In this document: piece after piece, positions 11,502-20,408 of the stretch
How the letters are laid out: every line of letters starts with the position of its first letter
How positions within the stretch are numbered: position 1 is the stretch's first letter
Virus record (IMG/VR): IMGVR_UViG_3300010042_000023
Span: 1-23,490 of that record
Reading direction: 5' to 3' (one strand)
DNA: 23,490 nucleotides
DNA from: a virus
Translations under genes and position numbers: made by a program
The notes under the pieces: model-generated
The model's database searches: none
The model's input: only the letters and a program-made list of their open reading frames with translations
Told to the model about the DNA's origin: nothing

Positions 11502-12026
11502 TCATTGGATCTTGGGTTTAGCTCCAGTAAAGATATTTTTTCCCTCTGCGTCGACTGAGTTGCCATATTTATCTCTGAATTGAATGCCTACATTGGCAAA
11601 GTGGCGGCGGCCCTTTTGAAGCTTATAGCTTCCAGGATTCATTGCCTTATCATGAGCAATCTTAATGCCATTAACCATGATTCCGCCCTCTGCAATAAGA
11701 CGCTTTGCTTCTCCCCTTGAGGCCACAAACCCCACTTGCTCGATAACCTTACTCAAATAAAGATCACTATCATCTATTAGCCTAGACATAAATGTAGTTC
11801 CAAGATCTCTAATGCCTTGCGGATCTAGGTCGTTAGCAAGCTGCTTGAATAGCTTAACAACAGCCATACGATCGCGCTCTTCAAAGGTAACAACCACCTG
11901 ATAGTTAGATCCTGAGCCATTCGTCTTATGAATGATTGACTCTAATAGGACCTTAGGTTCTTCTAGGTCAAACGTCTCTATAGTCTTACTGCTATTGAAC
12001 TTTCGCAATCCTTTTACTTCATCCAT
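11502..12026 (-). CDS. S4-domain RNA-binding protein (TyrRS C-terminus-like)
   Basis: 174 residues from ATG 12026 (MDEVKGLRKF), which follows AGAAAGAAG. An in-frame ATG at 12107 lacks a ribosome site. Residues 88-148 (LSKVIEQVGFVASRGEAKRLI, AEGGIMVNGIKI, YKLQKGRRHFANVG) match an S4 domain closely, above all the tRNA-binding C-terminal domain of tyrosyl-tRNA synthetase. The catalytic Rossmann part with HIGH and KMSKS motifs is absent. Residues 1-80 have no family I recognise (FDLEEPKVLLESIIHK, QVVVTFEERDRMAVVKLFKQL). It probably binds structured RNA, such as tRNA, rRNA or a phage transcript. It is the last gene of the minus-strand replication block. Confidence 0.7.
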   Translation of the reverse strand: MDEVKGLRKFNSSKTIETFDLEEPKVLLESIIHKTNGSGSNYQVVVTFEERDRMAVVKLFKQLANDLDPQGIRDLGTTFMSRLIDDSDLYLSKVIEQVGFVASRGEAKRLIAEGGIMVNGIKIAHDKAMNPGSYKLQKGRRHFANVGIQFRDKYGNSVDAEGKNIFTGAKPKIQ

Positions 12027-12104
12027 CTTGATACTTCTTTCTGGCCCCACGGCCGTTATATTTTCTCCCCACGGAGAATCCTTATTTCTTGTTACCCCGG
12101 CTGT

Positions 12105-12156
12105 CATGCGGTTATGTAACGAGGCAGAGACGAAGTCTCAACGAAGTGACGTAACG
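12105..12156. promoter_or_regulatory. Candidate control region of the S4-domain gene
   Basis: The region holds a small palindrome GAGACGAAGTCTC and two GTAACGA motifs 34 bp apart (12116 and 12150). On the minus strand TTGAGA (12141-12136) and TACATA (12118-12113) are 17 bp apart, a weak promoter match. CGGTTATGTAACG (12109-12121) is the reverse complement of a sequence at 13930-13942 in the initiator gene's control region. Confidence 0.35.
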
Positions 12157-12969: not shown

Positions 12970-13725
12970 TTACCAAGTACAGTTCTCTTCTGCCTCCTGA
13001 TCATACTTCGCTGGAAGATTCTTTCTGACTTTAGCTATCTCTTCTAAAGAGGGGTTGTTCTTTCTAAATTCCCTTACTCTTCTTCTAGTTTCATCTTCTA
13101 ATATTGCACCTTCGGTGCGGTTTACCTCAATAGGAGTATCTGCCAATAGAGAAGAATGATTAGGTTTATCAATAGGAGAAATACTACCCGCGCTAGCGGG
13201 TGCTGAGCTTTGCTCAGCTTGACCTTCTTCCTTATCCTCTATTTTGATAAATTCTCCCTTGGTCTTTCTATTCATACTTCTATGGGTAGTTCTCTTAGTA
13301 GTTTGTGTCTTGTATGGAGACACCCCCTGTCTTGAATCTGGACACCCCCTGTCTTCTGTGGAGACACCCCCTGTCTTGAGAGAAGACAGGGTCACCATCT
13401 GAAGATCATAGAAATTGGTACCACCTGGCTTCTCCTTGGTTACATCACGGACTAGGAAACCTAGAGCTGAGAGGATCGTAAAGGCGTCTGAGATGGTCTG
13501 ACGTGAAGCGTTGAACTGTTCAGCCAGTTTCGCCTGAGAGCACCACACCCCCTGTCCTGTTTCCCATGTAGCTCTCTTATCGGCTAGATGGTAGGCAATG
13601 AACCCTACTGTCATGTTCATCTTGATTGTGACTGTTTTACCAGTCTTCGTCTTGTGCTCGATATTAAGCTTAGCTGTGATGGCGTCGTCTATTTGGCGCA
13701 TCCATTCGTTCTTGTTGTATCGCAT
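12970..13725 (-). CDS. Winged-helix replication initiator-like protein with internal iterons
   Basis: 251 residues (MRYNKNEWMRQIDDAI). Residues 55-95 form a helix-turn-helix (WCSQAKLAEQFNASRQTISDAFTILSALGFLVRD), preceded by MNMTVGFIAYHL, as in replication initiators and replisome organisers of Gram-positive phages and plasmids. From about 115 the sequence becomes low-complexity and charged, ending in a helical tail. The DNA coding residues 117-136 holds three 15-bp repeats at exact 22-bp spacing. That period is not a multiple of 3, so selection is on DNA and not protein, as with the origin inside lambda gene O. AAGGA precedes the start. It is the only replication-type gene in the genome; a pure transcription regulator remains possible. 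Confidence 0.65.
   Translation of the reverse strand: MRYNKNEWMRQIDDAITAKLNIEHKTKTGKTVTIKMNMTVGFIAYHLADKRATWETGQGVWCSQAKLAEQFNASRQTISDAFTILSALGFLVRDVTKEKPGGTNFYDLQMVTLSSLKTGGVSTEDRGCPDSRQGVSPYKTQTTKRTTHRSMNRKTKGEFIKIEDKEEGQAEQSSAPASAGSISPIDKPNHSSLLADTPIEVNRTEGAILEDETRRRVREFRKNNPSLEEIAKVRKNLPAKYDQEAEENCTW
13319..13377. repeat. Three 22-bp-spaced direct repeats inside the initiator gene
   Basis: GACACCCCCTGTCTT occurs at 13319-13333, 13341-13355 and 13363-13377, identical and exactly 22 bp apart (two helix turns). A related copy, ACACCCCCTGTCC, lies at 13545-13557. An inverted partial copy, AAGACAGGG, at 13383-13391 makes a 9-bp hairpin with the third repeat. Candidate iterons of a phage origin. 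Confidence 0.85.
13369..13391. other. Perfect 9-bp inverted repeat at the edge of the iterons
   Basis: Arms CCCTGTCTT and AAGACAGGG with loop GAGAG. It could extrude as a hairpin next to the direct repeats or place two initiator molecules face to face. Confidence 0.7.
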
Positions 13726-13746
13726 GTCATGTCCTTAAATGAAAAT

Positions 13747-13778
13747 AATCCCCGGGGGACATGACTACCCCGGGGATT
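13747..13778 (-). terminator. Leader hairpin upstream of the initiator gene
   Basis: Perfect 11-bp arms AATCCCCGGGG and CCCCGGGGATT with a 10-base loop. On the minus strand it is followed by ATTTTCATTT, a terminator-type tail, only about 20 bases before the initiator start. It could attenuate initiator expression. Confidence 0.65.
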
Positions 13779-13838
13779 AAGCCTTTTGGATTTGAGCTGG
13801 AATTAGATTCCTGATGTCATGTCATTGCCCTTATCTCT

Positions 13839-16490: not shown

Positions 16491-16952
16491 ATGAAGGCAT
16501 TAGCAATCATAGTAATAGCAGTACTACTGTTCGGGCTAACCATAAGTGAACCTGTACACGCCATACCAACCCCTAAGGCATGTATGACAGAAGTACTCGC
16601 AAGAGCTGCACAGCTAGGCATCAACGGCTGGCTATGGATAGAAGACAACGAACACAAGATAGACGCAGCGGCTTTTGTGGATCCTGCTACGCACTCAGTC
16701 CATATCTCTGATTTTGTATCCTGTGAGCTAGCCGTATCAGTCGCTAATCACGAATGGGCTCACACCCGTCAGATGGACACATACGGCGAACGCACAACAG
16801 CAGCATATGGAGACGAGCTAGAGATCATTGCCGATTGTGCATCCATGCTATTGGAAAGCACATACACCCCCTACATTGCCAGGAAGAAAACAAAGGAGTG
16901 TTTCGGATGTACTCAGCTACAGCTTATCTCGGCAAGGAACCTATTGAAATGA
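16491..16952 (+). CDS. Secreted zinc metallopeptidase (HEXXH)
   Basis: 153 residues with a perfect AAGGAGG site before ATG. Residues 1-24 are a signal peptide (MKALAIIVIAVLLFGL, cleavage likely after VHA). The active site is NHEWAHTRQ (H87, E88, H91). Twenty residues later DELEIIADCAS resembles the ELxADC motif that supplies the third zinc ligand (E111) in neutral zinc metallopeptidases of the YpfJ type. Six cysteines (31, 78, 116, 137, 140 and near) suit disulfides outside the cell. Substrate unknown: it may act on envelope proteins during exit or entry, or take the place of a lysin. It is not a known endolysin family. Confidence 0.75.
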   Translation: MKALAIIVIAVLLFGLTISEPVHAIPTPKACMTEVLARAAQLGINGWLWIEDNEHKIDAAAFVDPATHSVHISDFVSCELAVSVANHEWAHTRQMDTYGERTTAAYGDELEIIADCASMLLESTYTPYIARKKTKECFGCTQLQLISARNLLK

Positions 16953-19004: not shown

Positions 19005-19142
19005 GTCACTCCTAGTAGCGAGTGCCTACCCTGTGTCTAGTACACAGGACATTACACATGGACATATTACCTCAGCTGTGTCATAGCCTCTGACCTGGTG
19101 TTACTCCGTTCGTGGCCTGGTCCACGGGTGTACTCTCCGGCC
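19005..19142. promoter_or_regulatory. Divergent promoter region, regulator versus integrase operon
   Basis: 138 bp between divergent genes. It holds the 19-bp palindrome (19030-19048) and must contain both promoters. A TACTCT at 19131-19136 sits seven bases before the regulator ATG, which has no ribosome site, so the regulator mRNA may be leaderless. attP could also lie here. Confidence 0.5.
19030..19048. promoter_or_regulatory. Palindromic operator candidate
   Basis: CCTGTGT and ACACAGG arms, perfect 7 bp, with CTAGT spacer. Typical size and spacing for a dimeric helix-turn-helix repressor, or part of an attP core. Confidence 0.55.
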
Positions 19143-20408
19143 ATGACTGCTGCCCCCAAGCTCCCAGACTGGTCACAGGCGCGCTATGCCGACGCGCTAG
19201 CCCGTAGAGACGTACTGGCCATCTTCGGCTACCTGGTAGAGCAGGGCTGGACACAACGACGCATAGCGTTCGAGCTTGGTTCTATGCAGTCAGAGATCTC
19301 GGACATCATGAAGGGCCGACGTAAGCCCATCAAAGTCAACTTCTTTGAGAAAGTTGCTAAGAGCTTCCACATTCCCCCGGGCAAGATGGGCCTAGCCTGG
19401 TCTGACAGCACTAAGCAGTATCAAGGCGCAGAAGCACCGGACATGCTCGAACATGCCATCAAAGCAATGATCGGTGAATCTTCTTATGAGCGGTCTAGCT
19501 ATCTCCTAGATCCCACACCTAGCTATAGCCATATAGGCAAAGCAGACGCAACAGCAGCCAATGAGTACTTCCTAGCTATTCAGCGGATAGAGCAGCAGTA
19601 CAGCGGACAGCTTCTACCGGCACAGGCTTTGATTCGCCAGACTGGACAGATGCTCAAGTCAGAGATGACTGATGATGTTCGGACTAGGCTTACCCAGATG
19701 CAAGGTTGGATGAACAGTTTTGCCGGATGGTGCGCTATCGACAGCGGCAACTTTGACCTAGGTATGTCGCACTTCTCAGAAGCCCTAAATATTGCCGGTA
19801 GCGTCAACGACCATCTTGGCAAGTGTCGTGCTCTCTACTCTGCTGGTAAAGCTGAGCTTCACTACGGCGACCCTGAGCAAGCACTGAAGCTCTTTCAGTT
19901 TGGTGTCATCCCTGCCGACGCTGTTGGTTCACAGCTCTTTCAAGCAGGCTTTGCCGCACACAGTGCATGGGCCGTCTCGCTACTGGACCCTTCACACGTT
20001 GCCCGCTACACGGAACACACGTGGGAATCCTATGGGCTGATGAAGCCCCAGAACGAGCGTGAGCAGATGGAGAAGTTTGTAACCCCCACCGACCTCCTAG
20101 CGGTCACCGGTCAAGCACAGGTGCTCTCAGCCCCAGAGAAGGCCATCAAGGATCTACGGCTGGCATTACGTAAGCGTCCGGCTAGTACACGCTCTACCGC
20201 GTTCGAGACAGCCACCTTGGCACATGCCTATCTGGCAGCAGGCTATACAGATAAAGCCCTTGAGACTGGCCGTAAGGCACTGAAGCTCGTGAAGAGTGTC
20301 AGGAGCAAGCGGGTAGCTGTACGTCTCAAGCCGTTGAAGGTAGCGGCCTATACGCATGGCTCTAGCGCGATGACTGAGCTTGCAGAGGACATACGTAAAG
20401 CTAGCTAG
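19143..20408 (+). CDS. HTH regulator with TPR-like C-terminus, probable immunity repressor
   Basis: 421 residues from ATG 19143 (MTAAPKLPDW). A longer open frame from 19098 has no ribosome site. Residues 35-62 are a XRE-type helix-turn-helix (GWTQRRIAFELGSMQSEISD, then KGRRKPIK), followed by HIPPGKMGLAW, the pattern of many Streptomyces regulators. Residues from about 130 to 415 are helical repeats (FSEALNIAGSVNDHLGKC, RALYSAGKAELHYGDPEQALKLF, AHAYLAAGYTDKALETGRKAL), TPR-like. This HTH plus TPR layout is that of peptide-sensing RRNPP-type regulators, though no peptide gene is seen here. Divergent from integrase, so most likely the repressor. Confidence 0.75.
   Translation: MTAAPKLPDWSQARYADALARRDVLAIFGYLVEQGWTQRRIAFELGSMQSEISDIMKGRRKPIKVNFFEKVAKSFHIPPGKMGLAWSDSTKQYQGAEAPDMLEHAIKAMIGESSYERSSYLLDPTPSYSHIGKADATAANEYFLAIQRIEQQYSGQLLPAQALIRQTGQMLKSEMTDDVRTRLTQMQGWMNSFAGWCAIDSGNFDLGMSHFSEALNIAGSVNDHLGKCRALYSAGKAELHYGDPEQALKLFQFGVIPADAVGSQLFQAGFAAHSAWAVSLLDPSHVARYTEHTWESYGLMKPQNEREQMEKFVTPTDLLAVTGQAQVLSAPEKAIKDLRLALRKRPASTRSTAFETATLAHAYLAAGYTDKALETGRKALKLVKSVRSKRVAVRLKPLKVAAYTHGSSAMTELAEDIRKAS

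Follow-up and report, generated by a model that had tools for sequence, protein, structure and literature searches.

An iteron array within an O-like initiator gene of a circular viral genome as a predicted replication origin

Described systems and the studied locus

Replication origins residing inside the gene for their own initiator are a textbook arrangement. In lambda and Stx phages, the iterons and an AT tract are found in the middle of gene O (PMC7466680). In the case of the RepA_N initiator Rep of plasmid pSK41, the winged-helix N-terminal domain binds boxes located centrally in rep, the origin encodes the linker of the protein, and the C-terminal domain interacts with host DnaG (PMC5703833). 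For RepA mycobacteriophages the origin has been placed within or next to repA, and the neighbouring regions examined contained no repeats (PMC7157519). The satellite phage MiniFlayer is reported to lack key replication genes (PMC10690885). What would matter beyond the layout as such is the recurrence of a short site across distant hosts.

Here, we analyzed a viral IMG/VR record of 23,490 bp (IMGVR_UViG_3300010042_000023, termed the window in the following) with an iteron array in the gene for a 251-aa protein. Its resemblance to lambda supports the original prediction that the locus follows the logic of gene O with its internal origin: iterons are located mid-gene beside an AT-rich tract, the array starting at nt 351 here and at nt 349 in lambda, and the two proteins have PHROG families 678 and 391 in common. 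On the other hand, lambda possesses four 18-bp iterons of the ATCCCTCAAAACGAGGGA type at 20–24 bp steps, while GACA-GGGGG-TGTC is repeated here at exactly 22 bp. Lambda also has an adjoining P gene, whereas no loader was recognised here and the initiator gave no PF04492 hit.

The viral genome and its initiator protein

The ends of the record overlap by 123 bp, so it represents a complete circular genome of 23,367 bp. Gene content comprises terminase, capsid, connector and tail genes, a serine integrase, an HTH-TPR regulator as well as Lsr2 and HNH genes, and relatives of the terminase stem mostly from actinophages. The initiator-like gene is oriented divergently from an HNH/sigma-like pair. 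In agreement with what had been noted earlier, PHROG and Pfam scans of the open reading frames outside the structural module recognised no polymerase, primase or helicase, nor a helicase loader. As the genome is a complete circle, the absence of polymerase, primase and helicase is meaningful. The initiator may represent the whole replication module, although short genes of unknown function are also present.

The 251-aa open reading frame (12970–13725, minus strand) had been called correctly and is assigned to the O-like replication initiators on the basis of PHROG families 678, 270 and 391 and an AlphaFold2 model. This model, built on a shallow alignment, features a winged helix (residues 38–110), a disordered linker (118–189) and C-terminal helices (205–250), with pLDDT values of about 88–93 for the wHTH blocks and largely below 50 for the linker. 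Matches were obtained with phrog_678 (4.9e-9) and phrog_391 (1.6e-7), both annotated as 'replication initiation O-like', and also with phrog_270, though part of the match falls in the linker and some of the score may therefore be compositional. Since lambda O, run as a control, matches the same families (phrog_678, 1.7e-35; phrog_391, 2.7e-39), both proteins belong to one broad O-like group, and the view that the protein is unrelated to that of lambda has to be given up. The family phrog_186 of DnaD-like helicase loaders scored more weakly (E 7.5e-4) than the O-like families. Among Pfam models, generic HTH domains were weakly matched and those of the HTH_36 type stayed below the cut-off; PF04492 (Phage_rep_O), to which lambda O itself matches with 5.7e-36, did not recognise the 251-aa protein, and neither did the RepA_N domain, which sets it apart from RepA_N initiators. 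A fold search returned generic winged helices, none of them with an E-value below 0.001. Weak matches to 4pql and 4pt7, which we take to be RepA_N domains, were no better than those to other winged helices. In protein-based searches, close relatives were found neither in IMG/VR nor in plasmids, nor, in a search run without a positive control, in 396 genomes of the Corynebacterium phylum.

Selection on DNA within the iteron array

As originally reported, the 15-bp sequence GACACCCCCTGTCTT (plus strand) occurs in three exact copies at 13319, 13341 and 13363, i.e., with spacings of 22 and 22. Read on the minus strand, these are three exact GACAGGGGGTGTC 13-mers at 22-bp steps in the part of the gene that encodes residues of the disordered linker 118–189, the unit on the gene strand consisting of AAGACAGGGGGTGTC and a diverged 7-bp spacer, repeated three times. 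Iteron 1 (13363–13375, minus strand) is located at gene nt 351 in reading phase 2, iteron 2 (13341–13353, minus strand) at nt 373 in phase 0 and iteron 3 (13319–13331, minus strand) at nt 395 in phase 1. In the whole window, GACA-n5-TGTC is present at these three sites only.

Because the 22-bp steps place one copy in each reading frame, three different peptides are encoded (TGGVS, DRGCP and RQGVS). With the protein given and the phage's own codon usage, the chance of each 13-mer arising by codon choice amounts to 0.0023, 0.0021 and 0.0019, respectively, and that of all three to about 9e-9; none of 20,000 synonymous shuffles contained any 13-mer three times. The frame test and the shuffling agree with the earlier proposal that a period breaking the codon frame indicates pressure on the DNA, and support the conclusion that selection in the array acts on DNA and not on the peptide. 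RNA folding of the array was not significant (z −1.8).

Elements flanking the array

A degenerate outlying copy, CACACCCCCTGTC (GACAGGGGGTGTG on the minus strand), is located at 13544–13556 (minus strand) inside the wHTH-coding part and retains 12 of the 13 core positions. This fourth copy had been listed along with the array, and synonymous shuffling indicates that it is unlikely to arise by codon choice (p = 0.0017), but it lies 181 bp from the nearest iteron, is out of the 22-bp register and has no counterpart at that place in the other genes examined.

Iteron 1 is preceded by the half-site TGTC (13385–13388, minus strand) and iteron 3 is followed by GACAC (13305–13309, minus strand), each after a 9-bp gap and in register. 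The former is part of the perfect 9-bp inverted repeat CCCTGTCTT/AAGACAGGG (13383–13391), which does exist as originally described, yet is better read as an in-register half-site. With half-sites exactly 9 bp away on either side, four TGTC-n9-GACA units are an equally possible reading of the array. We compared 16 related arrays, comprising the pattern-found genes, three dyad-variant genes and MiniFlayer: TGTC stands ahead of the first copy with a gap of exactly 9 bp in 11 of the 16, and in the majority GACA is present at offset 9 past the last copy. These counts are supportive rather than independent proof, as the loci were selected by the repeat, several are mutually related, and half-sites may be in-register remnants of tandem duplication.

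The array is adjoined by an AT-rich stretch (13231–13304, minus strand; about 62–70% AT), a candidate unwinding element. Its enrichment is modest, with an AT content of 0.66 in the 80 nt beside the array vs. 0.55 for the gene, and a peak of 70% per 40 bp vs. 72.5% elsewhere nearby. Across the compared set, the AT content of the 80 nt downstream of the array exceeds that of the gene (0.52 vs. 0.43; Wilcoxon p = 3e-4), while no enrichment was seen on the upstream side. A perfect DnaA box was not found, and no extremum of the cumulative GC skew coincides with the array. A 12-bp inverted repeat with a U-rich tail (13746–13779, minus strand; −22.7 kcal/mol, z −3.6), located a short distance upstream of the initiator gene, is predicted to fold into a strong hairpin resembling an attenuator or terminator.

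A diverged array in MiniFlayer

The only named homologue found for the 251-aa protein is gp13 of the Streptomyces satellite phage MiniFlayer (tblastn 2e-14, 31% identity), which is annotated as a hypothetical protein and encoded on a satellite that requires a helper. Within its gene (L011:12351–12407), GACAGTGTCTGTC, again GACAGTGTCTGTC and AACAGTGTCTGTC follow each other at 22-bp steps in three reading frames and in the same linker. Both genes thus carry a three-copy 22-bp linker array with GACA/TGTC arms, the core being GTGTC in MiniFlayer and GGGGG here. Relatives that keep the protein while lacking the repeats would speak against an origin; the sole detectable close relative, MiniFlayer gp13, has kept the array. 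The MiniFlayer iteron is absent from the helper MindFlayer even when one mismatch is allowed, so mimicry of the helper by the MiniFlayer site is unsupported. The array bears on the question of how far the described satellite truly depends on its helper for starting replication.

Recurrence of the 13-mer in other phages and bacteria

An IMG/VR scan for two exact copies of GACAGGGGGTGTC within 1–31 bp identified pairs in 10 other viral contigs, which represent about six lineages as counted by eye. All 10 arrays are located inside wHTH initiator genes (open reading frames read by eye), and the site occurs in either orientation relative to the gene. Assuming uniform composition, the probability of an exact 13-mer pair by chance is negligible. 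In GTDB contigs the pattern gave eight matches. Three fall in wHTH genes (Corynebacterium variabile, Thiobaca and Rhodovibrio), four lie outside initiator genes, and the remaining one is part of an ATPase-like gene in an Anaerolineales MAG. Loci L019 and L021 from GTDB were rejected as repetitive coding sequence, and loci L018 and L020 because they lie outside recognisable initiator genes.

The window's protein was aligned with the products of 15 genes identified by the pattern, some of which are close copies; of these 16 sequences, 15 match phrog_270 and 14 match phrog_391. Proteins of genes with the 13-mer or the G5 core are 14–27% identical to the 251-aa protein. A one-to-one link between recognition helix and iteron was dropped, as the same 13-mer goes along with helices such as SRQTIS, GRQAVN, SKASIC and AADNVP. 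Judged by sequence, one short site recurs in distantly related O-like phages of several bacterial phyla. The repeat had originally been regarded as unrelated to that of lambda, from which it does differ, but it is shared with these other O-like phages. No additional sites were obtained with an extended AAGACA dyad pattern. A text search in PMC for the 13-mer yielded no relevant paper, and one for AGGGGGT together with 'iteron' just an unrelated IncQ palindrome and a maize-virus paper.

Two further arrangements were observed. In the Anaerolineales MAG (L016:5671–5791), the same 13-mer site occurs in a different protein: pairs of GACAGGGGGTGTC with 21-bp steps are flanked by an ATPase-like domain on one side and a helix-turn-helix-like tail on the other. 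At four loci (L025, L027, L031 and L032), GACAAATGGTGTC arrays with 22–23 bp steps are located at the apparent start of the wHTH gene or upstream of it, and not mid-gene.

A wider class of arrays with an AGGGGGT core

Three AGGGGGT at 21–23 bp steps were found at 81 IMG/VR loci, in which the core is constant because it served as the search key. At 38 of 80 parsed loci the array lies within an open reading frame matching an O-like HMM trained on named phages only, while few matches occurred among 2,403 other open reading frames. The gene studied here resembles these other O-like phage and prophage genes with a G5 core in combining a wHTH gene with AGGGGGT at 21–23 bp steps, and they differ, phage to phage, in the arms around the core. 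Within 31 distinct arrays, arms vary from phage to phage, and they are complementary at a higher rate than permuted pairs at distances 1–5. One family (L126) was rejected since its array resides in another phage gene.

Of 40 genes selected from 481 genomes by matches to O-like or initiator profiles, 14 contain a significant tandem array within the gene. Internal iterons with such a period are therefore common, and the array studied here is of a known kind. About half of the significant arrays in this profile-based sample contain a G4/C4 run, an independent hint for the core. The wider scan points to AGGGGGT as a recurrent core flanked by variable arms. It is conceivable, albeit at somewhat less than even odds, that these arrays share a hidden iteron code in several phyla, with a constant A-GGGGG-T core that the winged-helix initiators recognise in a common manner and variable, often palindromic arms for the specificity of each phage, at about 22 bp under the linker, MiniFlayer having a diverged version with its own initiator and origin. 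The recurrent site provides a sequence handle for finding origins of initiator-only phages from metagenomes, and its recurrence allows the division of labour between core (general binding) and arms (specificity) to be tested.

The array as origin and alternative functions

The original prediction of a probable phage origin inside an initiator-like gene holds up in silico: we consider it highly probable that this is an O-type initiator gene with its own origin inside, and predict binding of the protein to the array as well as origin activity. The winged-helix domain would bind all three GACA-GGGGG-TGTC sites and probably also both half-sites next to them. With a step of 22 bp, or about two helical turns, the proteins bound there would sit on the same face of the DNA and form an O-some-like complex. 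This complex may melt the adjacent AT-rich stretch, while the C-terminal helices could recruit host helicase or primase, a step proposed because the phage encodes no recognisable one. As the array lies under a disordered linker, the protein would tolerate a DNA sequence that is held in all three frames.

Among the alternatives, an operator array, from which the winged-helix regulator would repress its own gene or an early operon, is unlikely. Proteins of such a fold are often repressors, the 251-aa protein has weak GntR/MarR-type profile matches, and the outlying copy is located upstream in the gene; however, the array resides about 350 nt into the coding sequence and not at a promoter, the best profile matches are replication families, and an AT-rich flank is recurrently paired with the array. 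Operator and origin functions can also coexist. Direct repeats serve as parS and pac sites, and a centromere-like site for partition or plasmid maintenance, or a packaging site, residing in the gene by chance, has thus to be weighed. This is very improbable, given that no ParA/ParB gene was recognised in the complete genome and that the site tracks the wHTH initiator gene across different phages. Least probable is a coding by-product without DNA function, i.e., a repetitive peptide linker or a recent tandem duplication: the linker is of low complexity and the GTDB matches L019 and L021 are such repeats, but the frame-shifting steps with their differing peptides, the codon-choice probability, unchanged 13-mers between diverged spacers, and the presence of an identical 13-mer, on one strand or the other, in unrelated genes all argue against it.

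Further genes of the virus

In the complete genome, neither an endolysin nor a holin could be clearly recognised. Beside the serine integrase, a 436-aa HTH_3 and TPR regulator is encoded (19098–20408, plus strand), the layout of which recalls peptide-sensing regulators of the RRNPP type. A 201-aa protein (11502–12107, minus strand), free-standing in this phage, carries an S4 RNA-binding domain similar to the C-terminus of tyrosyl-tRNA synthetase, and the gene at 16491–16952 (plus strand) possibly encodes a secreted metallopeptidase with a signal-like N-terminus, an HEWAH motif and a weak match to DUF6782.
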